Position numbers and translations under genes: made by a program. A stretch of 64,000 bases of DNA, taken from Acidobacteriota bacterium (GTDB lineage Bacteria > Acidobacteriota > Thermoanaerobaculia > Gp7-AA8). This document shows, in pieces, positions 3,322 to 45,161 of this stretch; position 1 is the first letter of the stretch, and every line of letters begins with the position of its first letter. The stretch spans positions 1 to 64,000 of the forward strand of contig JACPDH010000087.1 of the NCBI GenBank assembly GCA_016184115.1, written 5' to 3'. Below the pieces are notes generated by a model. It made no database searches. It saw only the letters and a program-made list of their open reading frames with translations, and had not been told where the DNA came from.

Positions 3322-3939
3322 ATGACCACACTCAAGGCATTGGAGATCTGGACGGCACAGTCAGTCTGTGACGTCGGCATTCTGTTGTCATTCGTCTCGC
3401 TCTTGCTGCACCTTGGCCGCCCGTACTTCGAGCGGATTCTCGGACGGCTCACGCTGCGCGTCGCGGCCGACCTCTGGTGGCTCGCGTATGTTGTGCTGCG
3501 CGACGGAACGCTCCTGGTCGCCGCGCTGTGCGGGCTCTGGTGTCTCAATCTCGATCTGATGGCCGATATCAAGATCGCATTGCCGTTCGTGCCGCTCGCG
3601 ACGGTCGCGTTGGTGATTGCGCTCGCGCTCAAAGTCTTCGGAAACGCCGAGGATCTCAATCGACGTTACCGCGGCGTGGTGCTCTGGGTTGCGCTGGCCG
3701 CCTTCCTCAACATGATCGGTTACGTCTTCGTGATGGAGGCGCCCGGGCCTGAGTACGCGGTGGCGAGGCAGCCTTTCTGGCAGGCGATGCGGGCGCTCCG
3801 CTCGAATGCGAATCCCGACCTCGCCGTTGCGACGTTCTACGTCACGCTGCTGCTGATCGGTGGCGTGACGGTCTTCGCGATCGTTCGCAGTTTCGGTCTG
3901 CTCCGTGCGATCCCCAGCGCGGAACGCGACGATGTTTAG
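3322..3939 (+). CDS. Integral membrane protein of unknown family, paired with ferredoxin
   Basis: I do not recognise the family. The 205-residue product has about five hydrophobic spans (roughly 16-30, 56-76, 83-102, 117-136 and 175-197), short loops and one membrane-buried His (LLLHLGRPYF). Its last bases overlap the start of the ferredoxin gene, so the two are translationally coupled. The position directly upstream of ferredoxin and multiheme cytochrome genes suggests an inner-membrane anchor or quinone-interacting module that hands electrons to the ferredoxin or the periplasm. That role is inference: no heme-binding His pairs like those of NrfD or cytochrome b561 are visible. Confidence 0.7.
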   Translation: MTTLKALEIWTAQSVCDVGILLSFVSLLLHLGRPYFERILGRLTLRVAADLWWLAYVVLRDGTLLVAALCGLWCLNLDLMADIKIALPFVPLATVALVIALALKVFGNAEDLNRRYRGVVLWVALAAFLNMIGYVFVMEAPGPEYAVARQPFWQAMRALRSNANPDLAVATFYVTLLLIGGVTVFAIVRSFGLLRAIPSAERDDV

Positions 3940-4189
3940 AATCGTCCTTCAGGCGAAGGTCTGCGTTTCGTGCGGCATCTGTGTCGACGTTTGCCGGCCG
4001 GTCGCGCTCGGCCTGCGGACGTTCAGGAACAACGGAGTCGAAGGCGCGCGGCTCAGCGCGTCTCTTCCGGTGGCGGAAATGGGGACGTTTCCCTACATGC
4101 GCGATGCGGCGCGATGTGACGGTTGCATGCTCTGCGTGAACGAGTGCCCCGTCGAGGCGCTCTCCATGACTTCGATCGCCCCGATGTGA
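3932..4189 (+). CDS. Small 2x[4Fe-4S] ferredoxin
   Basis: This 85-residue protein carries two four-cysteine cluster motifs, CVSCGICVDVCRP near residue 11 and CDGCMLCVNECP near residue 65, both ending in the Cys-Pro typical of bacterial [4Fe-4S] ferredoxins. No signal peptide is visible, so it should be cytoplasmic or on the inner face of the membrane. The ATG at 3932 lies inside the last codons of the membrane-protein gene (overlap of 8 bases), which explains why it needs no strong ribosome site of its own. The longer in-frame start at 3905 would lie deeper in that gene and adds an unconserved-looking leader. It probably works with the upstream membrane protein as an electron carrier. Confidence 0.85.
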   Translation: MFRIVLQAKVCVSCGICVDVCRPVALGLRTFRNNGVEGARLSASLPVAEMGTFPYMRDAARCDGCMLCVNECPVEALSMTSIAPM

Positions 4190-4475
4190 AGGCGGCCGCT
4201 CGTCGACCCTCGCGTCTGATGTCATCGCGAGGAGAGCGGTAAGGCGCCGGACGATCAGTGCAAGATTACCGAATGGTAATGAAGCGCTCCGCTCTGCGTG
4301 CCGCTGGACAGGTCGATCACGTGAGGCGGTGTTCGCGAACACGTTTGCGCTGCCTGTCAGTCACCTCGAGGCAGGCGCGGAGTCACCGCTGGTACCTCGA
4401 AGCTCGTCTACGATTTTCGACATTCGGAGCGAGCCTAACATGGGACGCTCCGACTCAGTCGAAGGAGGAACAACA
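4190..4475 (+). other. Intergenic region upstream of the cytochrome operon
   Basis: There are 286 bases without a convincing gene. It probably holds the promoter of the cytochrome cluster, but I see no clear -35/-10 pair. An in-frame extension of the cytochrome reading frame back to an ATG at 4329 exists, but it lacks a signal peptide at its N-terminus and a ribosome site, so I treat it as noncoding. Confidence 0.5.
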
Positions 4476-6254
4476 GTGGACAGAAAGCGACTCGTGCTCG
4501 CGTCGAGCATTCTCGCCATCGTCGTCAGCGTGCCGGCAATTGCCCGCCCTCGTCCCGTTACAAAGGCGCCTCGCGCCGAACAGGCCGAGCGACTCAAACA
4601 GACTCTCATCTCCGCATATGGTATGGAGGCGGCGACTGAGCCCACGTACATCGGCTCCGAGTTCTGCCTCGCCTGTCACACCAGCTACGCGACGTGGCGG
4701 GATGGCCTCCACGCGACGATGCACGCCGACCTTCCGGACGATGCCGGTTCGATGAATCCCGCGAACGGCATCATCTTCGATGCCAACGGCAACGGAGTCG
4801 ACGACTTCAAGGACGGGCTCGACTTCAATGCGATCTCCTCTCCGTTCGATGCCTACAAGCCCAATGCGCCCATTCTGAAGTACGTGGCGGGCGAAGCGTA
4901 CCCGTACCGAGTCACGATCGGCACGGTCACCTACAAGATGTTGATGAAGGAAGGGGGCTTCTTTCAGCAGCGTCTCATCACGCGGATTCCGGTCACCGAC
5001 GGAGCCGCCGATGGTCTCAGCCGCAGCTATTACATGCTGCCATTCGCGTATTCTCCGAAGTTGAAGAAGTACGCGACCTACAACCCGGACAAGTGGTGGG
5101 ACTCGACCGGTGCGCCCAAAGTCGTTGCGGGAATGACGGCGGCGCAGGTCATCGGCATCGGCCGCTCGTGGACCAAGGCGTGCGTTGGCTGCCACGTCAC
5201 GGGCTATAGCGTACAGAAGACCGCGAATGGCGACTGGGCCGCCGACGCTCCGCCCGCCGCACTATACAACTCGGGGGACCGGCACTACGTCGATCTCGAT
5301 CTCGATGGCAACCGCGAATTCGCAGGCGTCGGCTGTGAGTCGTGCCACGGCCCAGGTTCACAGCACGTTCTCGGCGGACCGAATCCGTCGAAGATCCTCA
5401 ACCCGAAGAACCTCCCGCGCGAGCAGCAGGTCTGGCTCTGCGCGCAGTGCCACACGCGCGGGAAGTCTGTTCCCGCAGGCGAGCACGATTACGCATACAA
5501 CGAGAGCGCCAACCACGGTTACCGCATCGGCGACAACGTGTGGGACTACTACCACGATGAGGCCGGCCTCTGGCCCGATGGAAAAACACCGAGCAAGGGT
5601 GAGCAGCAGTATCAGGCGCACGAGGACAGCAAGCACTTCACGAACGGATTCCACCTCGTGCTCTGCAGTGAGTGCCACGATCCGCACAGCGGCGCGCGCG
5701 GCATGCCGGTCACATCGGTGCTCAGCGAAGGCGTGCAGATCTCCACGAGTTTCGCTGACAACACGCTATGTCTTTCCTGCCACGCCACGCACGGTCCGTT
5801 CGAGTCGCTGACGAAGAGCGAGATCGCTGACGTGGCGACGAATCGCGACAAGATCAGCCGCGTCGTCAGCGCGCATACGAACCACCCCTACGCTCCGGAG
5901 CGAATGCTTGGCATGTCGCGCTGCACGACGTGCCACATGCCCCGCACCGCGAAGCGTGACTGGGAGTACGACGAGACTTCGCACACGATGGAAGCGATCA
6001 GTCCGCAGAAGACGATGCTCTATCAGGACAAGGGCGGCATGCCTTCGTCGTGTGCAGGTAGCTGCCACTCGATCAAAGCAAACGTCTACGAGCTGGGCAC
6101 CGACCCCACCTTCAAGAAGTGGGACGAGGCCTGGGACAAATCAAACGCGTCGATGCTCCTCAAGTACTTCGGTCCCGGTGGCATCTGGTGGGACAGCGAC
6201 GTGACCAAGAGCGGCAATACGACGGCTGCTGCGAAAGAGGGACGCGAAGACTAG
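4476..6254 (+). CDS. Periplasmic or secreted octaheme c-type cytochrome
   Basis: The start is GTG 4476, behind a strong AAGGAGG at 7-8 bases; this places a Sec signal peptide (about residues 1-24, SSILAIVVSVPAIARP) at the N-terminus. The mature protein has seven CXXCH heme sites (CLACH at 64-68, CVGCH, CESCH, CAQCH, CSECH, CLSCH, CTTCH) and one expanded site, CAGSCH, near the C-terminus, giving eight possible hemes. The opening sequence (YIGSEFCLACHTSY) resembles cytochrome-c554-type multihemes. Two acidic loops (DANGNGVDD and DLDLDGN) look like calcium sites. It precedes an MtrB-like porin and a decaheme protein, so it may be the outer partner or a terminal reductase of that conduit. No lipobox is seen, unlike MtrC. 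Family assignment beyond multiheme cytochrome c is uncertain. Confidence 0.88.
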   Translation: MDRKRLVLASSILAIVVSVPAIARPRPVTKAPRAEQAERLKQTLISAYGMEAATEPTYIGSEFCLACHTSYATWRDGLHATMHADLPDDAGSMNPANGIIFDANGNGVDDFKDGLDFNAISSPFDAYKPNAPILKYVAGEAYPYRVTIGTVTYKMLMKEGGFFQQRLITRIPVTDGAADGLSRSYYMLPFAYSPKLKKYATYNPDKWWDSTGAPKVVAGMTAAQVIGIGRSWTKACVGCHVTGYSVQKTANGDWAADAPPAALYNSGDRHYVDLDLDGNREFAGVGCESCHGPGSQHVLGGPNPSKILNPKNLPREQQVWLCAQCHTRGKSVPAGEHDYAYNESANHGYRIGDNVWDYYHDEAGLWPDGKTPSKGEQQYQAHEDSKHFTNGFHLVLCSECHDPHSGARGMPVTSVLSEGVQISTSFADNTLCLSCHATHGPFESLTKSEIADVATNRDKISRVVSAHTNHPYAPERMLGMSRCTTCHMPRTAKRDWEYDETSHTMEAISPQKTMLYQDKGGMPSSCAGSCHSIKANVYELGTDPTFKKWDEAWDKSNASMLLKYFGPGGIWWDSDVTKSGNTTAAAKEGRED

Positions 6255-6338
6255 ACGCTGCTATGGCGGCGAAATTCCGGGAGGGTGGGCGCGACCGCGC
6301 CCACTCTCCGGAGCTCTCTATGAGAGGAGAAGGCGATC

Positions 6339-8171
6339 GTGTCCATTCGCAACGTTCGATTCCTCGGCCTAACCATCGCGACGATTCTGTTGATCACCGG
6401 TTCCGTCGCCGCGGGTGACTGGACCGGATCGGTCGGATTCTCGCTTACCGGTCAGTCCGAAAGCGGAAATCCTGAAAGCTTCGCCACGCAGTCGGACCTG
6501 CAGGATGGCGCTTCGATCGAGAGTCTCTCGCTGACGAATGGCGAGATCCGATTGAACGCCTCCGGCTTCGCCGCGCAACCTGCGGGGAGCGTGGAGCTGA
6601 TCGTTCGTCCGCAATCACCATGGCGATTCGACCTGCGTCACGACACGCGGCGCTCGCTTTTCGCGCTGACTGCGAGCGATTCACCACAACGACGGGACGA
6701 CTGGTCGATCGATCGCTGGACGGCCAGCGGTTCGTACGACGGGCTCCGGCTCGCGAGGCTCGGTTTGTCGCTGCGCCGCGTCGACCGGCGCGGTGAGATC
6801 ACGCAGCCGTTCTTCGGTCTGAACGAGCAGTATCTGCTCTCCCGCGATGTCGATGACACGACCGACGAGGCGACGTTGTCCGTCGAGACGAAGACTCTTC
6901 CCGCGCGCATCATCTTCGAGCAGTCGTTCACGCGCTATGTGCGGCGCGACCGTCGGAGCCCCGCCGGCGCGAATGCGATCGGCGGCGTCGACCCCGATCT
7001 CCTCGCCGCCGCGTCGAGCACCCGCGACGACGAGTCGCTGTTCCCGACGTCGCGTCTCATCACGACCTGGGCGACCGAGCGAGTGCAGGTTGCAGGCACG
7101 GCGACCTGGTCTCCTGCGCAGCTCGACGGTAGCGGCGTCACCTCCTCGACATTCGCAATCGACGGAGGTTCGCGCGGCACTGTCGAGCTCATCGACGACG
7201 CCGTTTCCAAGGCGGACCGCGAGCTCTTCGGCGCCGATCTGCGCTTCGCCTGGCGCGTCGCGCCAATGGCGCTCGTTCGTGTCGATGCGAGCACGAGCGA
7301 CACGTCGACCGACGCTTCCCTAACAGGAGAGAGAATCCTCAGGATGCTGAGCCCCGAGGGGTCGCTAAATGAGGTTCGCGCACCGATCGACGAAGCGACG
7401 ATATTCGATCTCAGCGAGAGTCGTCTGCGCGTCGAAGTGGAGACCGGGCGCGATCGCTGGACGACGTGGGGCGGGGGCTTCCTTGCCGAGCGCGACACGA
7501 AATGGACGCTTCCCGGCGAGCCGTCTGCGCCGAGCCGTAACAGCCGTTCGACTGCCGGAGCCATTCTCGGAGGGCGGTATCAGTCCACGGCGCTGATGGT
7601 GTCGGCGGAGCTCGAGCATGGCACGTTCGAACATGAGCTTTTCCGCACCGATCCCCGCACGGTCGACCGCCTCACAGTCCGAGGTCGCAGCTCATTGGCT
7701 GGCGGGTGGAGCACGAGCGTGCAGGGGCGGGTCGAGCGCTCCGAAGCGGATGACGGCGATGCGGCTGACCGCGATTCCAGCTCGATCGGCGCGAACCTTG
7801 CGTGGCTCTCTCCCGACGGTCGCCGAGGCCTCGGCCTCGACGTCGACCTGTTGGACGTGCGGACCGAAACGCTGCTCTCCGCCTCGACCTTGCCCTCGAT
7901 CTACGACATCACGGCGTTGAGTACGACCCTGTCCGCGCACGCGTCGTTTGGAAGAATGCGCATCTCGGGGTCCGCATCGCGCACGAAGGACGCGGGCGAC
8001 ACGTGGCCGCTCGAAGCATGGAACGCGCGCGCGCGCATCGGGTACGAGATCCTCCCTAACGCCGAGATCAGCCTGTTCGGAGAGAGCTGGTCGTACGACG
8101 AAACGCGAGCGGACGCAGACGATTATGACGTAAGGCGGTTTGGGGTTTCAATTCTCTGGAGGCTGCGATGA
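6339..8171 (+). CDS. MtrB/PioB-like outer-membrane porin of a porin-cytochrome complex
   Basis: The 610-residue protein starts at GTG 6339, behind GAGAGGAG, with a signal peptide (LGLTIATILLITGSVAAG). The rest alternates short polar and hydrophobic stretches typical of a large beta-barrel, with repeated charged turns (RRDRRSP, DDGDAADRDSS), and ends in an aromatic-rich strand (FGVSILWRLR). In MtrB/PioB families the barrel sheathes a periplasmic decaheme cytochrome so that electrons cross the outer membrane. The N-terminal CXXC of Shewanella MtrB is absent. The stop overlaps the start of the decaheme gene (ATGA), so the barrel and its cytochrome are translated together. The call rests on length, barrel character and this coupling to a decaheme gene; a plain barrel of another family is the main alternative. 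Confidence 0.72.
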   Translation: MSIRNVRFLGLTIATILLITGSVAAGDWTGSVGFSLTGQSESGNPESFATQSDLQDGASIESLSLTNGEIRLNASGFAAQPAGSVELIVRPQSPWRFDLRHDTRRSLFALTASDSPQRRDDWSIDRWTASGSYDGLRLARLGLSLRRVDRRGEITQPFFGLNEQYLLSRDVDDTTDEATLSVETKTLPARIIFEQSFTRYVRRDRRSPAGANAIGGVDPDLLAAASSTRDDESLFPTSRLITTWATERVQVAGTATWSPAQLDGSGVTSSTFAIDGGSRGTVELIDDAVSKADRELFGADLRFAWRVAPMALVRVDASTSDTSTDASLTGERILRMLSPEGSLNEVRAPIDEATIFDLSESRLRVEVETGRDRWTTWGGGFLAERDTKWTLPGEPSAPSRNSRSTAGAILGGRYQSTALMVSAELEHGTFEHELFRTDPRTVDRLTVRGRSSLAGGWSTSVQGRVERSEADDGDAADRDSSSIGANLAWLSPDGRRGLGLDVDLLDVRTETLLSASTLPSIYDITALSTTLSAHASFGRMRISGSASRTKDAGDTWPLEAWNARARIGYEILPNAEISLFGESWSYDETRADADDYDVRRFGVSILWRLR

Positions 8172-8986
8172 TCGCTGGACTGGTGCTGTCTTTCCTGCTC
8201 GCCGGAGGAGAGGCGCCGCTGCCTTTGATGAATGACTGCGCCGGCTGTCACGAAGACCAGGTGGCGCAATTCAGCACCGGACGGCACGGGCGCGCGATGG
8301 CCGCGCGCTCGAGCGAGCTCCTTCAGCAGTCGTGCGCTTCCTGTCACTCCGGAGCCGCGAAGCACCTCGAAGATCCTTCGAGCGACTCGATCGAGCGTAT
8401 CCCAGGCGCGCCGGCGTGTGCGAAGTGTCATTCATCCGCCGAAAGCACGATCCAACTCGGAACCCCCGGTCACGTCCGCAATAAGGTGAGTTGTCTCGAT
8501 TGTCACGCCGGGGGCCACGAAACGAGCGAGCGCGAGTCGCTCCTCCGATCGGACTCACGCGAGTTTTGCAGCGGATGTCATCGACCGGAAGCGGCGCGCT
8601 TCGAGCTCCCGTTCGCGCATCGCGACGAATCACGCGAGCCGATGGACTGCATGAATTGCCATTCGATCCACGGCATCGGAAGGGTGAGCAGGCTTGGAGC
8701 GCTCGATAAGAACGGTGCGTGCGTCGAATGTCACGGAGAGCTCGCGGGGCCGTACGTGTTCGAACATCCGCCGCGCCAGGTCGAGGGGTGCGGCTCCTGC
8801 CACGACGTGCACGGATCACCGAATCCGCGTCAACTGCGCCGGCACAGCGTCGCGCTGCTGTGCGCGGAGTGTCACGGTGACTTACCGCGATCGCACGACG
8901 CCACGTCTGCCCGTTATCGAAACTGCACCGGCTGTCACTCTGCCATCCACGGTTCGAACCGCGACGCGCGCCTCTTCGACCGGTGA
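8168..8986 (+). CDS. Decaheme c-type cytochrome, MtrA/DmsE/PioA-like
   Basis: The 272-residue exported protein has ten CXXCH sites: CAGCH, CASCH, CAKCH, CLDCH, CSGCH, CMNCH, CVECH, CGSCH, CAECH and CTGCH. Ten hemes in about 250 residues is the density seen in MtrA and DmsE, which form a heme wire inserted in the MtrB barrel. The N-terminus is a short signal peptide (MIAGLVLSFLLAGGEA). Its ATG overlaps the porin stop by four bases. Typical family phrases are visible, such as the site just before GGHETSE and the HSIHG and DVHGSPNP segments. It is somewhat shorter than Shewanella MtrA, and no extra reductase domain is seen. Confidence 0.88.
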   Translation: MIAGLVLSFLLAGGEAPLPLMNDCAGCHEDQVAQFSTGRHGRAMAARSSELLQQSCASCHSGAAKHLEDPSSDSIERIPGAPACAKCHSSAESTIQLGTPGHVRNKVSCLDCHAGGHETSERESLLRSDSREFCSGCHRPEAARFELPFAHRDESREPMDCMNCHSIHGIGRVSRLGALDKNGACVECHGELAGPYVFEHPPRQVEGCGSCHDVHGSPNPRQLRRHSVALLCAECHGDLPRSHDATSARYRNCTGCHSAIHGSNRDARLFDR

Positions 8987-9655: not shown

Positions 9656-11065
9656 ATGTCGTCGTTTCGTTTTCAATTCATCGTTGGTTTTGTTTCGCTG
9701 ATCGCTCCGCTCGTGGCGATCGCTGACACGCTCGCCGATCAAGCGGCGCGCGCCGCGCTGCGCGACTCGCAGCTCGAGGCTCTCGTCGACGAGGCGCTCG
9801 CCAACGCGCCGGAGATCGCGACCGCCCGGGCGAGCGTCGACGCGGCGGAGTTCCGGATCATTCCCGCGGGCACTCTCGCCGATCCCTTCCTCTCGACGAC
9901 TTACCAGAACGACGGTCGCTCGATTTCGTTCGGCGACGCCGAGGGAAGTTTCCTCGGGCTGATGGGGAGCCAGGCGCTACCCTGGCCCGGAAAGCTCCGC
10001 CTCGCGAGTGACGCGGCAGCGAGCGAGGCGAAGGAAGTCGAGCGCGGGGCGCTCGGGCGCGCGGCCTTGACGATTGAAGCGCGCGTCCGCAACGCCTGGT
10101 ATGACCTCGTGCTCGCTCGCGCGATCGACGCGATCATTGACGAGCGGCGTACGGCGACGGCTCAGATCGAAGCGTCCGTGCGCGAACGGTATGCCGCCGG
10201 ACTCGCCGAGCAGCAGGACGTGCTCCGCGCACAGGTGGAGCTGATCCGAATCGACGAGTTGAAGACGACGCAGGCCGCAACGATCGCGAGCCGGCTCGCC
10301 GAGCTCAACCGGCTCGTCGGAACGCCGCAGGATCGTCCGGTCGAGACGCCGGACAGACTCCCGGACGATGCGACGATCGCGGCGCTGGCCGATCTGATTG
10401 CCGCATCGATGGCGCGCAGTCCCGAGCTCGCGTCATCCGAACAGGCGATCGAAACGAGTCGCATTCGTGTCGAGGAAGCAAAGAAGAACTTCTATCCCGA
10501 CTTCACGGTCAACGCGGGCTACATGAATCGCGGTGGCTGGGAGATGGGGCCGATGTGGCAGGTCGGCGTCGGCGTGAACGTGCCGATTTGGATCGACCGC
10601 AAGCAGAGAAACCAGGTGGCGGAGGCCGAGGCGATTGGACGCGGGCGAAGCTCGGAGCGCGACGTTGTAATGCGAGAGCTCGAGCTTCGCACCCGGGAGC
10701 GCAGCATTCAACTCGATGCCGCGCTTCGGGTGGCGGCACTGTACAGAGACAAAGTTCTCCCGCTCGACGTGATCTCACTCGAGTCGGCGCTCGCGAGCTA
10801 CCAGTCGGGCAAACTGCCGTTCATTACGGTACTCGACGCGCTTAACACGCTCTACGCCGATCGGTCGGCGCTCGAAAGCCGATTCGCCGAGAGTGCGAAA
10901 TGGCGCGTCGCGATCGACGAGGCGAGTCTTCAGCCCACCGCCATGGCAGGCGCCCCGTCGATGGGGACCTCGGGCATGGCTGGCAGCGTGGGCGCCGGAT
11001 TCACGCAGTCCTCCGCAGCGAATTCAAATGCAACGAGTGGCTCTTCGATGAGCTCGATGAGGTGA
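9656..11065 (+). CDS. Outer-membrane efflux factor (TolC/CusC family)
   Basis: This 469-residue protein is the outer-membrane channel of the Cu/Ag pump. It has a signal peptide (IVGFVSLIAPLVAIAD) and two copies of the family's long helix pair, each with the usual pattern of Ala/Glu/Arg-rich coiled coils (about residues 40-220 and 250-440). The ribosome site AAAGGAG lies 5-6 bases before the ATG. The C-terminal 45 residues are an unusual Met/Ser/Gly-rich tail (AMAGAPSMGTSGMAGS) that might bind Cu(I). No lipobox, unlike E. coli CusC. It is followed after 5 bases by the adaptor gene, so it is the first structural gene of a CBA operon. Confidence 0.88.
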   Translation: MSSFRFQFIVGFVSLIAPLVAIADTLADQAARAALRDSQLEALVDEALANAPEIATARASVDAAEFRIIPAGTLADPFLSTTYQNDGRSISFGDAEGSFLGLMGSQALPWPGKLRLASDAAASEAKEVERGALGRAALTIEARVRNAWYDLVLARAIDAIIDERRTATAQIEASVRERYAAGLAEQQDVLRAQVELIRIDELKTTQAATIASRLAELNRLVGTPQDRPVETPDRLPDDATIAALADLIAASMARSPELASSEQAIETSRIRVEEAKKNFYPDFTVNAGYMNRGGWEMGPMWQVGVGVNVPIWIDRKQRNQVAEAEAIGRGRSSERDVVMRELELRTRERSIQLDAALRVAALYRDKVLPLDVISLESALASYQSGKLPFITVLDALNTLYADRSALESRFAESAKWRVAIDEASLQPTAMAGAPSMGTSGMAGSVGAGFTQSSAANSNATSGSSMSSMR

Positions 11066-11070
11066 TCACG

Positions 11071-12453
11071 ATGAACACGAAACTACCCTGGTTCCTAACA
11101 GTCCTTCTCGCGGTCGCGCTCGTATTCGTGGTGATCACGCGTCCGGCCAGCCAAGGTGACGGTAGCGGTAAAGCGGGCGAAAAGAAGGTTCTCTACTGGG
11201 TCGACCCGATGAATCCGGAGAACAAGTCCGACAAACCGGGCAAGGCGCCCGATGGGATGGACCTCGTTCCGGTGTACGACGAGGAGAATGCCGCCCCTGC
11301 AAAGGCAGAGAAGAAGGTTCTCTTCTGGGTCGACCCGATGCACCCGGCGTACAAATCGGACAAGCCGGGGACGGCTCCCGACTGTGGCATGGATCTGGTT
11401 CCTGTCTACGAAGGTGACGAAGGGCCCGAAGGGTCTCAGTCGGATGTCGAAGGCTATTCGAAGGTCAAGCTAACGACGCAGCGGCAGCAGCTCATCGGCG
11501 TGCAGACCGGTGTCGCGGAGACGCGCGCGATCGGCCGCAGGGTCCGCACCGTCGGCCGCGTGGCGGTCGACGAGACGCGGCTCCACAAGATCACGACGAA
11601 ATTCGACGGCTACATCGAGAAGCTCTACGTCGACTACACGGGCAAAGAAGTCCGCCGAGGCCAGCCACTCTTCTCCGTTTACAGCCCCGAGCTTCTCGCG
11701 ACGCAGCAGGAGTACCTCCTCGCGCTGCGTGCGGCCGACCAGTCGCCGCTTCTGCTCGAGGCGGCGCGTCGGCGTTTGCAACTGTGGGACATCAGCAGCG
11801 ACGACATCCGCAAGCTCGAAAAGACGGGCGAGACGCGCAAGAACCTGACGATCTACTCGCCCGCGAACGGGTTTGTCATCACGAAGAACGCGGTCGAAGG
11901 GGCTCGCATCTTGGCGGGCGAGCCAATGTTCGAGATCGCCGGTCTCGACCGCGTTTGGATTCTCGCCGACGTCTACGAGTCGGAGCTTGCGGCGGCGAGG
12001 CTAGGGGTTCGCGCTGCGATCACGCTGTCATACCTTCCAGGCCGCACGTTCGATGGCACGGTTACTTTCGTGACTCCGACCGTCGACTCGATGACCCGGA
12101 CCGCGAAAGTGCGTGTCGAAGTCGACAACCGTGACGGCGCACTGAAGCCTGAAATGTTCGCCGACGTCGTGATCCAGGAGCCGGAGCGCAGCGTCACCGT
12201 GGTTCCGGAGTCCGCAGTGATCTCCACGGGAACACGCTCCGTGCTGTTTGTCGTGAAGGACGACGGCATGTTCGAACCGCGCGAGATCGAGACAGGCGTC
12301 AAGAGCGAGCGCTATGTCGAAATCCGGAGTGGCATCGAGCCGGGCGAGAAGGTTGCTACGCAGGCCAACTTCCTCATCGACTCGGAATCGCGACTGAAGG
12401 CCGCACTGGCACAGATGAGTGGGCCCGGCGGTCATAGCGGGCACGGTCAATGA
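11071..12453 (+). CDS. RND periplasmic adaptor, CusB-like, with two N-terminal heavy-metal-binding segments
   Basis: The 460-residue adaptor bridges CusA and the outer-membrane channel. After a membrane anchor (residues 4-22) come two tandem copies of the heavy-metal-binding motif (about 39-67 and 77-106). The second keeps DPMHP and APDCGMDLVP; the first reads DPMNP and APDGMDLVP, so it has lost the His and Cys. The canonical first Cys (YTCPMHP) is absent from both. The remainder shows the barrel-sandwich, helical hairpin and beta-barrel order of CusB (from about TRQRQQ-like KLTTQRQQLIGV at 130), and the tail GPGGHSGHGQ is His-rich. ATG 11071 follows the cusC stop by five bases and places the anchor at the N-terminus; upstream in-frame starts lie inside cusC. 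Confidence 0.88.
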   Translation: MNTKLPWFLTVLLAVALVFVVITRPASQGDGSGKAGEKKVLYWVDPMNPENKSDKPGKAPDGMDLVPVYDEENAAPAKAEKKVLFWVDPMHPAYKSDKPGTAPDCGMDLVPVYEGDEGPEGSQSDVEGYSKVKLTTQRQQLIGVQTGVAETRAIGRRVRTVGRVAVDETRLHKITTKFDGYIEKLYVDYTGKEVRRGQPLFSVYSPELLATQQEYLLALRAADQSPLLLEAARRRLQLWDISSDDIRKLEKTGETRKNLTIYSPANGFVITKNAVEGARILAGEPMFEIAGLDRVWILADVYESELAAARLGVRAAITLSYLPGRTFDGTVTFVTPTVDSMTRTAKVRVEVDNRDGALKPEMFADVVIQEPERSVTVVPESAVISTGTRSVLFVVKDDGMFEPREIETGVKSERYVEIRSGIEPGEKVATQANFLIDSESRLKAALAQMSGPGGHSGHGQ

Positions 12454-12472
12454 GCGCCGCGGGAGCAGAACA

Positions 12473-15400
12473 ATGATCGAAAAGCTGATCCGCATCTGCG
12501 CCACAAACAAGTTCGCGACACTGACGATCGTCGCAGCGCTCGTCTTCATCGGCATGTGGTCGATGCAACAGATCGCGCTCGACGCGTTGCCCGACCTCTC
12601 CGACACGCAGGTCATCATCTATTCGCGATGGGACCGTAGTCCCGACATCATCGAGGATCAGGTCACCTATCCCATCGTGACGTCGATGCTCGGCGCACCG
12701 AAGGTGAAGACCATTCGTGGCTTCAGTGATTTTGGATACTCGTATGTCTATGTGATCTTCGAAGAGGGGACGGATCTCTATTGGGCGCGCAGTCGCACGC
12801 TCGAGTACCTCTCGAAAATCCAGCCGCAATTGCCCGACGGCGTACGGACCGAGCTCGGACCCGATGCGACCGGCGTCGGTTGGGTGTTCCAATACGCACT
12901 CGTCGACAAGAGTGGGAAGCACTCGCTCGCCGACCTCCGGTCGCTACAAGACTGGACGGTGCGTTACGCCGTGCAGGCCGTGCCTGGTGTCGCCGAGGTA
13001 GCGTCGTTAGGCGGATTCGTCCGGCAGTACCAGATCACGGTCGACCCGAACCGGCTCTCCTCGTACGGCATCCCGCTGATGCAGGTGATGGAGGCGGTGC
13101 GGTCGTCGAACAACGAAGTCGGCGGTCGCCTCGTCGAGTGGGGCGGCGCCGAATACATGGTGCGCGCACGCGGATACGTGAAGAAAGTCGAGGATCTCGA
13201 GGAGATCGTCGTCAAGACTGATGAACGGGGAACCCCAGTAAGGTTGAGGGACGTTGCGAGCGTGCAGCTCGGTCCGGAAATCCGCCGCGGTATCGCGGAG
13301 CTCGACGGCGAGGGTGAGGTGGCGTCGGGTGTCGTCGTCATGCGGCACGGCGAGAACGCGCTCAAGGTAATCGAACGCGTGAAGGAGAAGCTCGCCGACA
13401 TTCAGAAGACGCTGCCGGAAGGCGTGGAGATCGTCACGACCTACGATCGATCGGAGCTCATCGAGCGATCGATCGAGACGCTCAAGCACGAGCTGATCCT
13501 CGAGATGATCATCGTCTCGCTGGTGATCCTCATCTTCCTCTGGCACATTCCCAGCTCCGTCATCCCGATCGTGACGATTCCGGCTGCGGTGATTTTGTCG
13601 TTCATTCCGATGCAGATCTTCGGGATCAACGCGAACATCATGTCGCTCGGCGGGATCGCGGTCGCGATCGGAGCGCTCGTCGATGCGGCGGTCGTCGTCG
13701 TCGAGAACGCGCACAAGAAGCTCGAATTGTGGGAAGCCGAGGGGCGAAAGGGAGACTACAAGGAAGTTCTGATTACCGCCATCCAGGAAGTCGGACGCCC
13801 GAGTTTCTACTCCTTGATGGTCATCGCGATCGCGTTCATCCCGATCTTCGCACTCGAAGCACAGGAGGGACGGTTGTTCCGCCCGCTCGCCTTCACGAAG
13901 AATTTCGCGATGGCCATCGCGGCGATCCTCGCAGTGACGCTCGATCCGGCGATCCGGTTGCTCTTCACGCGCATGAAGGAGTTCCGATTTGCGCGCCGTC
14001 AGGGCGAACTTCGCGAGGATGGCACGATCCACGAGGAGGCGAAGGGCGTGCTCGCCTCGATTGGGCGAGGGTTCATACGTGGTGCCGAGAAGGTGACCAA
14101 TGCGGTCCTCGTCGGGAAGATGCATCCTGAGGAGAAGCATCCGATCTCGAAGATCCTCTTCAAGGTGTACGGGCCGCCTGCGCATTGGGTGTTGAGGAAT
14201 CCGCGGTTGACGATCGGCATCGCACTCCTCGTCGTCCTGGCGACAGTGCCGGTTTACAAGAAGCTCGGCCACGAGTTCATGCCGCCTCTCAACGAAGGGT
14301 CGATCCTTTACATGCCGACGACGCTTCCCGGGATCTCGGTGACCGAGGCGACCGCGCTTCTGCAGAGACAGGACCAACTCCTGAAGACGTTCCCGGAGGT
14401 CGAACGGGTCTTCGGTAAGGCCGGTCGCGCCGAGACCTCGACCGACCCGGCTCCCTTCGCGATGATGGAGACGGTCGTCATCCTCAAGCCGGAGGAGCAG
14501 TGGCGGTCGAAGGAACGCTGGTATTCGGACGCTCCCGAGTTCATTAAGCCGGTCTTGCGACCACTCTGGCCGGAGACGATCTCGTGGGATGAGCTCGTCA
14601 ACGAGATGAACGACAAGCTCACGCTGCCGGGACAGACCAACGCCTGGACGATGCCGATCAAGAACCGCATCGACATGCTCACCACAGGCGTCCGCACTCC
14701 AGTCGGAATCAAGATCTTCGGTTCCGATCTCAAGGAGATCGAGCGAATCGGCCAGCATCTGGAAGGGGTTCTGCAAACCGTTCCCGGAACGCGCAGCGTC
14801 TACGGCGAGCGCACCGCGGGCGGGTACTTCGTCGACTTCGACCTCAATCGTGTACAGATTGCGCGTTATGGCCTAACTGTCAAGGAAGTGCAGGACGTCA
14901 TCATGACCGCGATCGGAGGCGAGAACGTCTCCACGACGATCGAAGGACGCGAGCGTTATCCGGTCAACATCCGTTATCCGCGCGAGATGCGCGACGACGT
15001 CGACAAGCTCGCCCGGACGCTGGTTCCGACGATGGGCGGCGCTCAGGTTCCGCTTGGCCAGCTCGCCACGATCAAGCTACTGGAAGGTCCGGCGATGATC
15101 CGTGACGAGGACGGGAAGCTTTCGGGCTACGTCTACGTCGACGTCGACACGGCGAGCCGCGACCTCGGCGGCTACGTGGAAGACGCGAAGAAGGCCGTCG
15201 ACGCGGAGCTCAAGCTCCAGCCGGGATACCTGCTCGCCTGGAGCGGACAGTACGAGGCGATGGCCCGCGTGAAGGAGAAGATGAAGGTCGTCCTTCCGCT
15301 CACCCTCTTCGTCGTCTTCGGGCTCATTTACATGAACACGAAGTCGCTGATGAAGACGAGTATCGTCCTGCTGGCCGTGCCGTTCAGCGCCGTCGGCGCA

Positions 15401-16276
15401 ATCTGGCTGCTCTACGCCCTCGGTTACAACGTCTCGATCGGTGTGTGGGTCGGATTGATCGCCCTGTTAGGTCTCGATGCAGAGACGGGCATCTTCATGC
15501 TGCTTTACCTCGATCTGTCCTATGCCGACGCGAAAGCGAAGGGGCTCCTGCGAAACCGGACCGACCTCAACGAGGCGATCCTCCATGGCGCCGTGCAACG
15601 CGTGAGGCCGAAGGTCATGACTGTCGCTTGCGCGTTCTTCGGCCTCGTGCCGATCATGTGGTCGACGGGCGCCGGCGCCGATGTCATGAAGCGTATCGCC
15701 GCGCCGATGATTGGCGGACTCTTCACGTCGTTTCTGATGGAGCTGCTCGTCTACCCGGCGGTCTATCTATTGTGGCGCAAGCGCGAGCTTCCTCGGGAAG
15801 AACACGTGAATGAGACCGGCATCGCTTGGCGACACAAGCTGTCGATCGCCGTCGGCGTGATCGTTGCGATCGCAATTGCGCTCTGGATGTTCTTAGGCGG
15901 CAAGGAACAGCAGTCGCTTTTCCCGAAATACGAGGCGGTGAGGCTTGCTCTCGTCGCGAACGACCATGCAGGCGTGAAGGCGCGTGCCGCGGAGCTCGCC
16001 GAGGCGGCGAGGAGCTCGAATCAGGACGGCGTCGCACAGTCCGCGGTGAAGGTCGCGGAGATGAGCGAGCTCGAGACGTCACGTGAGGCCTTCGGGGCTC
16101 TGTCCGACGCGATGATCGCCTACCGCTCGAGCTCCGATGAAGGACCGAAGCCGCAGGTGACGTATTGCTCAATGGTCAAGCGTTCATGGCTTCAGCCGAA
16201 GGGCGAAGTGAACAACCCTTACTACGCGGACGACGCGATGCGCACCTGCGGCGAAGTCAAAGAGGAGGCCGAGTGA
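12473..16276 (+). CDS. RND pump CusA-like (Cu/Ag), with C-terminal DUF3347-type domain
   Basis: This is the inner-membrane proton-driven pump of the operon. TM4 carries AIGALVDAAVVVVENAHKK, the monovalent-cation (HME-4, CusA) signature, rather than the DFGxxVDGA of CzcA. The porter region has the Met-rich APFAMMETVVILKPEEQW and GHEFMPPLNEGS segments expected of Cu(I) relay. After the usual end at about residue 1110 there is an extra membrane segment (SIAVGVIVAIAIALWMFLGG) and a domain of about 120 residues ending TYCSMVKRSWLQPKGEVNNP and CGEVKEEAE, which matches DUF3347. That fusion makes the protein 1267 residues instead of about 1045. ATG 12473 is preceded by GGGAGC; the longer reading to 12419 overlaps cusB. 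Confidence 0.92.
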   Translation: MIEKLIRICATNKFATLTIVAALVFIGMWSMQQIALDALPDLSDTQVIIYSRWDRSPDIIEDQVTYPIVTSMLGAPKVKTIRGFSDFGYSYVYVIFEEGTDLYWARSRTLEYLSKIQPQLPDGVRTELGPDATGVGWVFQYALVDKSGKHSLADLRSLQDWTVRYAVQAVPGVAEVASLGGFVRQYQITVDPNRLSSYGIPLMQVMEAVRSSNNEVGGRLVEWGGAEYMVRARGYVKKVEDLEEIVVKTDERGTPVRLRDVASVQLGPEIRRGIAELDGEGEVASGVVVMRHGENALKVIERVKEKLADIQKTLPEGVEIVTTYDRSELIERSIETLKHELILEMIIVSLVILIFLWHIPSSVIPIVTIPAAVILSFIPMQIFGINANIMSLGGIAVAIGALVDAAVVVVENAHKKLELWEAEGRKGDYKEVLITAIQEVGRPSFYSLMVIAIAFIPIFALEAQEGRLFRPLAFTKNFAMAIAAILAVTLDPAIRLLFTRMKEFRFARRQGELREDGTIHEEAKGVLASIGRGFIRGAEKVTNAVLVGKMHPEEKHPISKILFKVYGPPAHWVLRNPRLTIGIALLVVLATVPVYKKLGHEFMPPLNEGSILYMPTTLPGISVTEATALLQRQDQLLKTFPEVERVFGKAGRAETSTDPAPFAMMETVVILKPEEQWRSKERWYSDAPEFIKPVLRPLWPETISWDELVNEMNDKLTLPGQTNAWTMPIKNRIDMLTTGVRTPVGIKIFGSDLKEIERIGQHLEGVLQTVPGTRSVYGERTAGGYFVDFDLNRVQIARYGLTVKEVQDVIMTAIGGENVSTTIEGRERYPVNIRYPREMRDDVDKLARTLVPTMGGAQVPLGQLATIKLLEGPAMIRDEDGKLSGYVYVDVDTASRDLGGYVEDAKKAVDAELKLQPGYLLAWSGQYEAMARVKEKMKVVLPLTLFVVFGLIYMNTKSLMKTSIVLLAVPFSAVGAIWLLYALGYNVSIGVWVGLIALLGLDAETGIFMLLYLDLSYADAKAKGLLRNRTDLNEAILHGAVQRVRPKVMTVACAFFGLVPIMWSTGAGADVMKRIAAPMIGGLFTSFLMELLVYPAVYLLWRKRELPREEHVNETGIAWRHKLSIAVGVIVAIAIALWMFLGGKEQQSLFPKYEAVRLALVANDHAGVKARAAELAEAARSSNQDGVAQSAVKVAEMSELETSREAFGALSDAMIAYRSSSDEGPKPQVTYCSMVKRSWLQPKGEVNNPYYADDAMRTCGEVKEEAE

Positions 16277-32431: not shown

Positions 32432-33871
32432 ATGAGATGCGCACCCTTGCGCTTTGCCCTACTGGTTGGAGCGATCGTCCTGGGCGGCTGCGCGAGCGTC
32501 CCTCCGGATTCCGGTTTTGGCGACGTTCATCAGGCGGTGGCCGATCAGACGGGTCAGTCGATCGCATGGAACCCGAAGGAGCCGGTGGGAAGCCCGGCAT
32601 CCGATGATGCCATTCTCCCGCTTCTGAAGGACGAGCTCACTGCCGACCGTGCCGTGCAGATCGCCCTCACCAACAATCGCGACCTCTTGGCGACGATCGA
32701 GCAGCTCGGTATCGCGCGAGCGGACTTTCTCGCGGCGAGCACGATTCGCAACCCCATCCTCGACGGAGAGATCCGCTTCCCGGGCGGCGTGGAGTACCCG
32801 TTCGAGTTGGGCCTCACTCAGTCGCTCATCGACCTTCTACAGCTTCGGACGAGGCGAGCCGTGGGTGCGGCCGCATTCGAAGCGGCGAAGTCGCGTGTCA
32901 CCGGGGCGGTGGTCAACTTTGCGGGTGAGGTCAGAATCGACTACTTCGATGTACAGGCTTCGCGGCAGATCCTCGCGCGCCAACGCATCATCGCGGAGGC
33001 GGCGCGGTTGTCGGTCGAGATCGCGATGCGCCAGCACACCGCGGGGAACATCTCGGACCTCGACCTCGAGAGCGAGCAGGCGCTCTACGAACAGGCAAAA
33101 CTCGACCTCGCCCGGGTCGAGCTGTCGGCTCTCAAAGCTCGCGAACGCCTGATCATCGACCTCGGGCTTCTCGACGCAGCGGCCGAGCTCGAGCTGCCTA
33201 ACGGCTTCGATCAGCTCCCCGAGAACGAGCCGCAGCTCGAGGATCTCGAGGCGACGGCGATCGAGCGGAGAATCGACGTGCGCCTGGCGCGACAGGAGCT
33301 CGAAGTGGCGAGCCTCGCTCTGCCTGCCGCGGCGCGAAGCGAGGTTCTCGAAGAGCTCTCGCTCGGCGTCCACCACGAACGAGAACCCGAGGGAAGCTCG
33401 AATACGGGCCCGGCACTCGAGATCCCGATTCCGATCTTCAATCGCGGGGCGGCACGACGGGAGCGTGCGATCGCCACGATGCGCGCGGCGCAGCAGCGCC
33501 TCGCTGCATTGACAGTCAACGCCCGATCCGAAGTTCGCATCGCTCGCGAGGAGTTGGTCGAGGCGCGCGCCCGCGCGGAGTACCTGCGCGACGTGGTTGT
33601 ACCGCGTCGTCAGCGGATTCTTTACCTCACGCAACTCGAATACAACGCGATGCTTCGCGGCGTGTATCAACTCATTGAGGCGAAGCAGAGCGAGGCGAGC
33701 GCACAGCACGACTATGTCGTCGCACAACGCGACTACTGGGTCGCTCGGACGGGTCTGGATGCCGCAATGAGCGGCGTGTCGGCGTTCGCCGTTCGCGACG
33801 AAGGTCGTGACGCCGCGGGATCGGGTCTCTTCATCGGCGCGAACCGGAGTGAATCGAAGGAGAACCACTGA
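32432..33871 (+). CDS. Outer-membrane efflux factor (TolC family), lipoprotein
   Basis: A 479-residue TolC-like channel with a lipoprotein signal (FALLVGAIVLGGCAS, lipobox LGGC), as in CusC and OprM. Two helix-pair repeats follow (for example NNRDLLATIEQLGIARADFL near 75, and RIDVRLARQELEVASLALPA near 290). No adaptor or RND gene is nearby; the neighbours are a metal-binding lipoprotein and a multicopper oxidase. PcoB/CopB-like roles are usually filled by other folds, so this is either an export channel that borrows a pump from elsewhere or a copper-related variant. Confidence 0.85.
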   Translation: MRCAPLRFALLVGAIVLGGCASVPPDSGFGDVHQAVADQTGQSIAWNPKEPVGSPASDDAILPLLKDELTADRAVQIALTNNRDLLATIEQLGIARADFLAASTIRNPILDGEIRFPGGVEYPFELGLTQSLIDLLQLRTRRAVGAAAFEAAKSRVTGAVVNFAGEVRIDYFDVQASRQILARQRIIAEAARLSVEIAMRQHTAGNISDLDLESEQALYEQAKLDLARVELSALKARERLIIDLGLLDAAAELELPNGFDQLPENEPQLEDLEATAIERRIDVRLARQELEVASLALPAAARSEVLEELSLGVHHEREPEGSSNTGPALEIPIPIFNRGAARRERAIATMRAAQQRLAALTVNARSEVRIAREELVEARARAEYLRDVVVPRRQRILYLTQLEYNAMLRGVYQLIEAKQSEASAQHDYVVAQRDYWVARTGLDAAMSGVSAFAVRDEGRDAAGSGLFIGANRSESKENH

Positions 33872-33873
33872 TC

Positions 33874-35235
33874 ATGCTCTCGAGAAGAAATCTTCTGTTT
33901 TCGAGCGTTGCCGCCGCGGCGGGATTGCTGAGCCCGAGACGAATGCTCGCGGCGGCCACGACTACTGCTCCGGAAAGACGAAATCCATCGGTCGTTACGC
34001 CTAACGGGTCGAGTCTCCCGTGGCGCTGGGAGGATGGCTGCAAGACCTTCCATCTCATCGCCGAGCCGGTCGTCCGCGAGTTCGCGCCGGGGATGAAGGT
34101 CAACTGTTGGGGTTACAACGGCCAGACGCCCGGGCCGACGATCGAGGCGGTCGAAGGCGACCGGGTCCGCATTTACGTCGAGAACCGGCTACCCGAGCCT
34201 ACTTCGGTGCACTGGCATGGCGTGCTGCTGCCTAACGGGATGGACGGAGTTTCCGGGCTCAATCAGCGGGCGATCGGTCCCGGAGAGACATTCAAGTACG
34301 AGTTCACCGTGAAGCAACACGGCACGCAGATGTACCACCCGCACTTCGACGAGATGGTGCAGTTCTCGATGGGGATGATGGGCTTTCTCATCTTCCATCC
34401 CAGGAAGCCGCAACGGCGCATCGATCGCGACTTCGCAATCTTCCTGAACGAGTGGTTCATCAAGCCGGGGACGTCCACGCCCGATCCGGCGATGATGCTC
34501 GATTTCAACGTCTTCACCTTCAACAGCCGCGTCTTCCCCGGAACGGAACCACTCATCGCGCGGCTCGGCGATCGAATCCGCATTCGCGTCGCGAACATCA
34601 GCATGGACTCGCACCCCATCCACGTTCACGGACACACGTTCCGCTGGACCGGAAGCGACGGCGGGCCGCTCCCTGAAACGGCCTGGATACCCGAAACGAG
34701 CATCAATGTGCCGCCCGGTACGACGCGCGACGTGGAGTTCGTCGCGGACAACCCGGGTGACTGGGCACTCCATTGTCACAAGGTCCATCACACGATGAAT
34801 CAGATGGGGCACGGCCTTCCGGTGATGACGGGCGTCGATCAATCGGGCGTATCGGAACGATTGAACGAGCTCATCCCGGGCTACATGGCGATGGGGAGTT
34901 CCGGCATGGGCGACATGCCGGACATGGGGCTGCCGCGCAACACGCTTCTCATGGGTTCGCATACGGGCAACGCGGACGGCCCCTTCGGTTCGATTTACAT
35001 GGGAGGGATGTTCACGATCCTGAAGATTCGCAAGAACCTCAAGAGCTACGAAGATCCAGGCTGGTACGACCATCCCGCCGGAACCGTTGCGTCGCCGGCT
35101 GGTACGACGTCGAGTCCGGAGAAGCCGGCGTCGAAACCGCACGAGCATCATTCGTCGAATCAGGGCACGCCTACGGGCGAGTTCCAGGTGGTGCGAGCGG
35201 CTGCGTGCTCGACGCCAATGACGGGGAGGAGATGA
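33874..35235 (+). CDS. Multicopper oxidase, Tat-exported (CopA/PcoA/CueO-like)
   Basis: A 453-residue enzyme that probably oxidises Cu(I) to Cu(II) in the periplasm while reducing oxygen. It begins with a Tat-type signal (SRRNLLFSSVAAAAGLL). The four copper sites are visible: HWHG, YHPHFDE, HPIHVHGHTF and HCHKVHHTMNQM, which supplies the type 1 ligands Cys, His and Met. The tail is rich in Met (YMAMGSSGMGDMPDMG) and His (HEHHS). Size is typical of two-domain-like compact oxidases. It starts two bases after the outer-membrane factor stop. Confidence 0.92.
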   Translation: MLSRRNLLFSSVAAAAGLLSPRRMLAAATTTAPERRNPSVVTPNGSSLPWRWEDGCKTFHLIAEPVVREFAPGMKVNCWGYNGQTPGPTIEAVEGDRVRIYVENRLPEPTSVHWHGVLLPNGMDGVSGLNQRAIGPGETFKYEFTVKQHGTQMYHPHFDEMVQFSMGMMGFLIFHPRKPQRRIDRDFAIFLNEWFIKPGTSTPDPAMMLDFNVFTFNSRVFPGTEPLIARLGDRIRIRVANISMDSHPIHVHGHTFRWTGSDGGPLPETAWIPETSINVPPGTTRDVEFVADNPGDWALHCHKVHHTMNQMGHGLPVMTGVDQSGVSERLNELIPGYMAMGSSGMGDMPDMGLPRNTLLMGSHTGNADGPFGSIYMGGMFTILKIRKNLKSYEDPGWYDHPAGTVASPAGTTSSPEKPASKPHEHHSSNQGTPTGEFQVVRAAACSTPMTGRR

Positions 35236-35238
35236 CCG

Positions 35239-35883
35239 ATGAAGCGAATCGTGAAGCTCGGTCTCATCGCGACGATGGCCGTTGCGTTGTTAGGACTATT
35301 CGTGTTCGTGCGAACGCTTCGCTATGGATTCAGCGCGCTCGACGAGCCGATGGCCATCGAGACGTTCATGGCGAAGACGATGCGTCACTGGGCCGTTCCG
35401 TCCGACCTGCGCGACGCGAAGAACCCGCTGCCGCTGACGCCGGAGCTCCTCGCAGAGGCGCGGACGCACTTTGCCGACCACTGCGCCACCTGTCACGGCA
35501 ACGACGGAAAAGGCGAGACGTCACTCGGGGCGAAGATGTACCCACCGACTCCGGACATGACGCTTTCCGCGACACAGTCGATGTCCGACGGTGAGCTCTT
35601 CGCGACGATCGAGAACGGCATTCGCCTAACCGGGATGCCGGGATTCGGCAGCGGCACCGCGGAATCGGCGCGAGGAAGCTGGTCGCTCGTTCATTTCATC
35701 CGGCACATGCCGAAGCTCACCCCCGAAGAGCTCGTGGAGATGGAATCGCTCAACCCCAAGTCTCCCGAGGAATGGGAGGCACTGAAGGCGGAGGAGGAGT
35801 TTCTGTCCGGAGGCGGCACGGAGAAAACCGCCGTCACCTCATCACAATCAAAAGAACAACAGCCACAACCGCATCACCACTAA
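35239..35883 (+). CDS. Mono-heme cytochrome c
   Basis: A 214-residue exported protein with an N-terminal anchor (LIATMAVALLGLFVFV) and one c-type heme site, CATCHGNDG, at about residue 80, with a likely axial Met in RLTGMPGFGSG. A class I cytochrome c fold of the c6/cbb3 type is expected. The tail is acidic, then His-rich (PQPHHH). It follows the multicopper oxidase by 3 bases, so it may be its electron donor or acceptor. Confidence 0.85.
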   Translation: MKRIVKLGLIATMAVALLGLFVFVRTLRYGFSALDEPMAIETFMAKTMRHWAVPSDLRDAKNPLPLTPELLAEARTHFADHCATCHGNDGKGETSLGAKMYPPTPDMTLSATQSMSDGELFATIENGIRLTGMPGFGSGTAESARGSWSLVHFIRHMPKLTPEELVEMESLNPKSPEEWEALKAEEEFLSGGGTEKTAVTSSQSKEQQPQPHHH

Positions 35884-35896
35884 GGAGATCGTTGTC

Positions 35897-36196
35897 ATGC
35901 GTAAGATTCTCATGCTTCTGTCCCTCGTCCTCTTCGTCAGTTCGTTCGCATACGCCCACGACGAGCACGCGAACAAATTCCTCGGAACCGTCAAGTCGGT
36001 CAAGGACAACAACCTCGAACTGTCGTTCGAAGATGGCGACACGAAGACTGTCGTCCTCACCGAGAAGACCGTGATCCTCAAGGGGAAAGAAAAGGCTGAC
36101 CGATCCGCCCTCACGGAAGGAGTCCGCGTGTCGGTCGAGATCGACAAGGAGAACAAGGCGATCACCATCAAGCTCGCGACAGATCCTCCGCAATGA
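35897..36196 (+). CDS. Small exported beta-barrel (DUF5666/OB-like) protein
   Basis: A 99-residue protein with a signal peptide (LLSLVLFVSSFAYAH), then HDEHANKFLGTVKSVKDNNL and alternating strands to the end. The pattern resembles DUF5666 or OB-fold proteins such as the CusF type. The His/Glu cluster after the signal cleavage site might bind metal. It follows the cytochrome by 13 bases, ribosome site AAGGAG, and closes the operon. Confidence 0.75.
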   Translation: MRKILMLLSLVLFVSSFAYAHDEHANKFLGTVKSVKDNNLELSFEDGDTKTVVLTEKTVILKGKEKADRSALTEGVRVSVEIDKENKAITIKLATDPPQ

Positions 36197-36338
36197 TCGC
36201 ATCACCGCGATCTACATTGGATCCGTCGCGGCGGCAATGGACGGCATCCGCAAGGTGATGGGACCGCAGTTTGCAGCTCGATAGTGTCGTGTAAAGGCCG
36301 GGGGTGAGAGCGCCGTTGAAGTTGCAGGTGGACGATCA

Positions 36339-37286: not shown

Positions 37287-37432
37287 CCGCGCTACGAGAA
37301 CACGGTGCATTTCGGGTGGCGGAAGCTCCGCGGCCACGTGGTTCGAGCTCGAAGTGGAAAGAATCCTTCCCATCCGTCACGTTTTCCTGGCAGCTCCGTC
37401 TTTGTTGGCGAGAACCACGTGACGGAGGATCC

Positions 37433-38536: not shown

Positions 38537-38545
38537 AAAGGTGGA

Positions 38546-38686
38546 AGGTGGGGTCACACCGAAAGTTGAAAGTTTAGCGAGGGCTGCGGGCGCTAAACTT
38601 TCAACTTTCGGTGTGACCCCACCTCTTGCCCACCACCTCTTGCCCAAAACTTTCAACTTTCGGTGTGACCCCACCTCTTGCCCACC
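38546..38686. repeat. Perfect 34-base inverted repeat plus a 40-base direct repeat
   Basis: Two arms of 34 bases (38546-38579 and 38591-38624) are exact reverse complements around an 11-base loop. The right arm continues as a 40-base unit (38595-38634), which repeats exactly at 38647-38686 after 12 bases. The unit ends in GGTGTGACCCCACCTCTTGC. A related copy lies after the cytochrome operon at 8.99 kb. The element follows directly after the sigma-factor stop and could end its transcript. Confidence 0.75.
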
Positions 38687-38770
38687 CCCAGCATTGGTCC
38701 CATGGTGTCTGGCCCGGTGGTCACTTCGAATGTCGGTGCGATTCGTCTCCATTTCGGCACGAGCCTTCGC

Positions 38771-38798
38771 TTGACCTTGGTTCCCGGATGTGTATCAT
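38771..38798 (+). promoter_or_regulatory. Promoter giving a leaderless transcript for the czc operon leader
   Basis: TTGACC (38771-38776) and TATCAT (38793-38798) are 16 bases apart. The ATG at 38807 is only 8 bases after the -10, so the message should start at or next to the start codon. There is no Shine-Dalgarno site. Confidence 0.6.
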
Positions 38799-38806
38799 CG
38801 CCCTCC

Positions 38807-39151: not shown

Positions 39152-39228
39152 TCCTCCCTCCATCGAACCGCATCACCCGTTCACGGGATACGTGTACCAC
39201 TCACACCTTCATTCGGAGGAGGAGAATC

Positions 39229-41966: not shown

Positions 41967-45161
<3,195 letters not shown>

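Follow-up and report, generated by a model that had tools for sequence, protein, structure and literature searches.

A putative Mtr-like porin-cytochrome conduit with an octaheme cytochrome as candidate outer partner in an Acidobacteriota genome

Five open reading frames located at positions 3322 to 8986 of a 64,000-nucleotide stretch of an Acidobacteriota genome of 4.4 Mb (assembly GCA_016184115.1, contig JACPDH010000087.1, here C112; the whole stretch is called the window) raise the question of whether they encode an electron conduit through the outer membrane, and which of them belong to it. A preliminary description of this DNA had proposed that an octaheme cytochrome, a large barrel protein and a decaheme cytochrome constitute such a conduit and that a membrane protein and a ferredoxin feed it with electrons in place of CymA. 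All five open reading frames were found where they had been described, on the plus strand. With a probability of about 0.7, the locus encodes a trans-outer-membrane porin-cytochrome conduit with the octaheme cytochrome as outer partner, supplied with electrons from quinol by proteins encoded elsewhere in the genome.

A conserved cassette of octaheme, barrel and decaheme genes

The three genes considered as conduit components code for an octaheme c-type cytochrome (4476-6254), a predicted outer-membrane beta-barrel protein of 610 amino acids and distant MtrB/PioB type (6339-8171) and a decaheme cytochrome of the DmsE/MtrA family (8168-8986). The 10 CXXCH motifs of the decaheme protein and the ATGA overlap that joins the stop codon of the barrel gene to the decaheme start codon, both mentioned in the preliminary description, were confirmed. 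A survey of 396 Acidobacteriota genomes, in which a strong barrel match was defined by a profile E-value below 1e-40, revealed that the octaheme gene adjoins the barrel and decaheme genes in 20 of the 23 strong barrel loci. The remaining loci are those of genomes G100 and G123, with the octaheme gene on another contig, and that of G118. This clustering is beyond chance, and the three genes form a conserved Acidobacteriota cassette. Barrel and decaheme genes overlap or are separated by a maximum of 11 nucleotides in 20 of 21 other loci, the exception being L140, in which the upstream start is uncertain. The order barrel-decaheme-octaheme is present in all 20 complete cassettes other than that of the window, which is the only one among the complete cassettes compared with the order octaheme-barrel-decaheme. 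The full order of five genes was not found at any other locus examined; of the gene-order conservation expected in the preliminary description, the part concerning the three-gene set was retained and that concerning all five genes was not. The G+C content of the conduit island (0.62-0.65) is not anomalous with respect to that of the whole window (0.635).

The decaheme protein is matched over its full length by the DmsE/MtrA model TIGR03508 (E 4e-45; 154 bits, below the curated cut-off of 192), and its residues 21-266 match the MtrA chain in the solved structure of MtrCAB (6r2q_A, E 6.2e-17). By sequence, it is a member of the MtrA/DmsE family. Its score with the GSU2203 model NF041028 was 124 bits against a curated cut-off of 325. 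The same genome contains three further full-length decaheme genes of the DmsE/MtrA family, each located beside a gene for a large predicted outer-membrane protein: an MtrAB-type pair whose barrel is a true PF11854 member (E 5e-86; L101, contig C59), a GSU2203/2204-type pair whose barrel truly belongs to the GSU2204 family (519.5 bits, above the cut-off; L102, contig C110) and a pair with a weaker barrel match (L100, contig C42).

The barrel gene starts with GTG, preceded by GAGGAGAAGG, and its product contains no cysteines. Taken alone, the protein had no match in Pfam, NCBIfam or PDB, including PF11854 (MtrB_PioB) at an E-value of 1, and a PDB search with a barrel profile of 11 rows also gave nothing. 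Its relatives in the same class share 26-38% identity with it; 7 of 11 are matched by the GSU2204 model NF041027, and 2 of 11 weakly by PF11854 (best value 0.0014). When a profile of 19 relatives was aligned with hhalign to five PF11854-positive barrels of the same class, a match with a probability of 98.4% was obtained (E 4.8e-15, 548 columns). The reversed family gave 10.9% (E 0.0028) with the same barrels. Since the family scored 79.8% (1.5e-5) against its own reversed copy, hhalign scores are inflated by the low-complexity composition of barrels, though not to the level of 4.8e-15. The barrel family is taken as a distant MtrB/PioB homologue on these profile alignments, and the match to MtrB/PioB proteins by which the preliminary description would have judged the barrel was obtained in this way for the family and not for the single sequence. 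GSU2204 was also considered as the family of the window barrel and was rejected, as hhalign with the genuine member of contig C110 yielded 3.8% and NF041027 does not match the window protein.

The octaheme gene has its best start at a GTG codon at position 4476 with AAGGAGG upstream, and its product carries a Sec signal peptide; throughout the family, the N-termini resemble signal peptides by eye. Seven CXXCH motifs and one CX3CH motif are present in all 33 family members, so the term octaheme used in the preliminary description holds if the CX3CH site is counted, CXXCH sites alone being seven. Among the histidines outside these motifs, five are invariant and a further two occur commonly. The OmcA/MtrC model TIGR03507 gave no match to the protein at an E-value of 1, and PF22113 scored 21.7 bits, below its cut-off of 30. 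The best solved relatives of the family profile were OcwA (6i5b, E 2.2e-21, with the best stretch at positions 290-563) and then 6qvm (4.3e-10). OcwA is a cell-surface terminal reductase of Thermincola (PMC6703420). In related barrel and decaheme pairs of the same class, the partner position is occupied by an OmcA/MtrC decaheme cytochrome scoring 367-485 bits with TIGR03507, over the curated cut-off (L143, L144, L145, L032 and L028), and for this reason the octaheme protein is considered to fill the MtrC slot. The family assignments of decaheme and barrel, together with the conserved clustering, bear out the porin-cytochrome conduit of the preliminary description, as the clustering does the partnership of the octaheme. 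A 943-residue protein with 15 CXXCH motifs encoded at another locus (L052, 7232-10063) is partly related to the octaheme family and is apparently a fusion with further hemes.

Proposed electron path and alternative readings

In the proposed mechanism, electrons from the menaquinol pool would be delivered by inner-membrane multiheme oxidoreductases encoded elsewhere in the genome, and the decaheme protein, presumably threaded in the MtrB-like barrel, would conduct them through the outer membrane to its outer side. There, the secreted octaheme protein would dock in place of MtrC/OmcA, as terminal reductase or as a relay facing the acceptor. Electron flow would probably be outward, with metal oxides or other acceptors outside the cell being respired. 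The system has been classed as an Mtr-like porin-cytochrome conduit and not as MtrCAB because the tests for the outer partner and for PF11854 failed.

Candidates for the inner-membrane step were found in the same genome. NrfH is encoded at L103 (9681-10205; 164.8 bits, cut-off 134), and a locus on contig C53 (L104, 8795-15337) codes for a 503-residue protein with an NrfH-like region and six CXXCH motifs, followed by two multiheme proteins of 657 residues with 11 CXXCH and 965 residues with 21 CXXCH. The C-terminal regions of these two proteins resemble the cytochrome b of the formate dehydrogenase gamma subunit, a fusion that we take to be a CbcL-like architecture. A multiheme pair that is similar in size and heme count lies beside the cassette of genome G075 (L112, 8994-13631). 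From their sequences, the NrfH, NrfH-like and CbcL-like proteins are better candidates for feeding the conduit than the ferredoxin.

Several observations weigh against the proposed conduit with an octaheme outer partner. MtrB of Shewanella carries an N-terminal CXXC motif, which the window barrel lacks, in addition to having no match to the MtrB profile as a single sequence. The AlphaFold2 model of the barrel from a single sequence was unusable (mean predicted local distance difference test, pLDDT, 31.5), as was the prediction of the octaheme from five sequences (mean pLDDT 32.9); the 610-residue protein is regarded as a barrel from family homology and not from its fold. Octaheme genes standing alone were seen at 12 loci and indicate that the octaheme can occur independently of the conduit, although some of them are on short contigs that may have lost the partner (L130 starts close to the end of its contig). 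The window octaheme has its closest relative among these stand-alone proteins. Finally, none of the 33 family members has a lipobox, apart from a questionable VVAC motif in two of the orphans. The octaheme thus has no sequence anchor on the outside and could be periplasmic.

A periplasmic octaheme would be an enzyme or relay that exchanges electrons with the decaheme protein from inside, acting on a soluble acceptor, be it a nitrogen, a sulfur or another compound. As in PioAB/MtoAB, the outer end of the conduit would then either have no cytochrome or depend on a different one. Besides the missing lipobox and the orphan genes without a nearby barrel, this would agree with the presence of soluble reductases among the relatives of OcwA, c554 and NrfA (PMC6703420) and with the functioning of PioAB and MtoAB without an outer cytochrome (PMC4245776, PMC8805035). 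However, the gene occupies the position of OmcA/MtrC in sister loci, a CXXCK heme site such as that of NrfA or octaheme tetrathionate reductase was not found in the protein and the tetrathionate reductase (Otr) model TIGR04315 gave no match, so that we consider a periplasmic location unlikely, while keeping it as a serious alternative. A conduit running inward, with oxidation of Fe(II) or another extracellular donor like PioAB/MtoAB, is improbable: the sequence leaves the direction unfixed and MtrAB homologues run both ways (PMC8805035), but the OcwA-like octaheme partner and the quinol proteins of CbcL/NrfH type point to outward respiration.

The supply of cytoplasmic electrons by the ferredoxin and its membrane partner in place of CymA, as proposed in the preliminary description, is very improbable. 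Both genes are conserved together and have the same orientation as the octaheme gene, which begins 287 nucleotides downstream. A promoter/terminator scan detected no terminator-like site in this gap; overall, its yield did not exceed that from shuffled sequences. The pair and the conduit could share one transcript. Nevertheless, no barrel or decaheme gene was found near the pair in its 18 other loci, several of which are on short contigs, and the genes flanking it there are unrelated and differ between loci, among them those for a peptidase, a sulfatase, a citrate synthase, an isocitrate dehydrogenase and a DUF2339 protein. Conversely, the pair was not found at any of the 20 other complete conduit loci, and genomes G073 and G112 hold pair and conduit on different contigs. 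In addition, the membrane-protein family has no conserved histidine that could serve as heme ligand, a cytoplasmic ferredoxin would need a periplasmic carrier that the pair does not encode, and the quinol-oxidising multiheme candidates described above are available. Because it recurs without the conduit, in varied neighbourhoods, and on separate contigs in G073 and G112, the pair has evolved separately and is most likely a conserved unit of its own, a neighbour rather than a part of the conduit. As a conduit component it was rejected on synteny, and the feed function assigned to it is not upheld. The conduit with an octaheme outer partner fed from quinol is the reading that is maintained here.

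Possible exchange of the outer cytochrome and genes around the conduit

The phylogenetic tree of the octaheme family places the window protein and a stand-alone octaheme of genome G036 as sisters (58% identity, support 100/100). In the tree of barrel plus decaheme, the window sequences join those of the cassette in this same genome (support 81/81), inside a clade of 12. Forcing the window octaheme together with the octaheme of the G036 cassette was rejected by the approximately unbiased (AU) test (p 6.4e-11). This conflict between the octaheme and barrel trees, together with the odd gene order, suggests an exchange of the outer cytochrome, in which the window conduit would have taken its octaheme from the stand-alone lineage. 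A wider interpretation is that this is a lineage-specific Mtr-like conduit in which an octaheme of OcwA/c554 type, unrelated to MtrC/OmcA, was recruited as outer terminal reductase and behaves as an exchangeable module; in this genome, an octaheme from the stand-alone lineage, positioned upstream of the barrel gene, would have taken its place. We propose this wider interpretation tentatively, the chances being slightly against it.

The first gene of the separate unit (3322-3939) codes for the membrane protein, which has about five hydrophobic segments and neither a match in Pfam or NCBIfam, PF03264 included, nor a CXXCH motif. It was also considered as a cytochrome b and rejected for want of a conserved histidine. 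The second gene (3932-4189), which overlaps it by 8 nucleotides, codes for a ferredoxin with two [4Fe-4S] motifs and Fer4 family matches over the cut-off. A profile search located the membrane-protein family in 20 of the 396 genomes, two of them marginal. In 11 of the 18 other loci, a two-cluster ferredoxin directly follows the membrane protein, and a twelfth shows one cluster. At L085, L086 and L088, the membrane protein stands instead beside a gene for a four-cluster Fe-S protein. Loci with membrane protein and ferredoxin, the former without any Pfam family, include L053 (9394-10083) and L075-L091.

The conduit is located in a metal-resistance neighbourhood with two RND efflux sets of copper/heavy-metal type. 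The set at 9656-16276 of the window includes an outer-membrane efflux protein, a membrane-fusion protein and a CusA-like pump, and that at 32432-45161 a CusB-like fusion protein and an RND pump. The window also encodes a multicopper oxidase (33874-35235) and a protein with a CBB3-type cytochrome domain (35239-35883). At the start of the contig (27-3290), the genes for a histidine kinase and an EptA-type phosphoethanolamine transferase are neighbours and form a pair for lipid A modification.

Significance and comparison with known systems

Should the octaheme act as the outer reductase, an outer partner belonging to another cytochrome superfamily would have been adopted by Mtr-type conduits, and the barrel-decaheme core would be a socket for different terminal reductases. 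With the cassette, extracellular respiration in Acidobacteriota would also have a set of markers that searches with MtrB or MtrC profiles miss. The earlier view of this locus as a wire driven by ferredoxin is corrected as well.

Porin-cytochrome conduits have been reported in Acidobacteria from Holophaga (PMC7399161) and Acidobacteriia (PMC8805035). Open-access full texts were searched for an octaheme with MtrAB in this phylum and only PMC8805035 turned up, which is weak evidence of absence. The window locus shares with MtrCAB of Shewanella oneidensis an MtrA/DmsE-family decaheme, a barrel family homologous to PF11854 and an adjacent outer multiheme cytochrome. It differs in that its own barrel is cysteine-free and too distant for PF11854, in that the outer partner has eight hemes, lacks a lipobox and is outside the OmcA/MtrC family, and in the gene order, octaheme-barrel-decaheme in the window as opposed to barrel-decaheme-octaheme in the other cassettes. 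The Group 5 MtrCAB systems of Acidobacteriia (Baker et al. 2022, PMC8805035) are from the same phylum and are likewise Mtr-type conduits without a nearby inner-membrane quinol oxidoreductase, but they include a genuine MtrC and, downstream of mtrB, a tetraheme of the periplasm, whereas the window has an octaheme and no MtrC.

The Pcc conduit of Geobacter (OmbB-OmaB-OmcB, PMC4245776) has the same architecture of porin, periplasmic cytochrome and outer cytochrome; its 8-heme periplasmic and 12-heme outer lipoprotein cytochromes are phylogenetically unrelated to Mtr, in contrast to the 10-heme and 8-heme proteins without lipobox of the window. The GSU2203/GSU2204 pair of Geobacter resembles the window genes by the distant NF041028 match and by the NF041027 matches among the barrel relatives, but these genes are far below both curated cut-offs and a genuine pair exists elsewhere in the genome (C110). 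OcwA of Thermincola potens (6i5b, PMC6703420), the best solved-structure match of the octaheme profile, has nine hemes, is located at a Gram-positive cell surface and has no barrel partner, whereas the window family has eight sites. Conserved clusters of multiheme cytochromes with predicted beta-barrels are known from Thermoanaerobaculia of the same phylum (PMC8528874). They are described there as syntenic, also in the metal-oxide-reducing Thermoanaerobaculum aquaticum, for which a role in metal-oxide reduction is proposed; they may be the same cassette as the one described here. Similar clusters have thus already been noted in Acidobacteriota, and what is new at this locus is the variant with a proposed outer partner other than MtrC.

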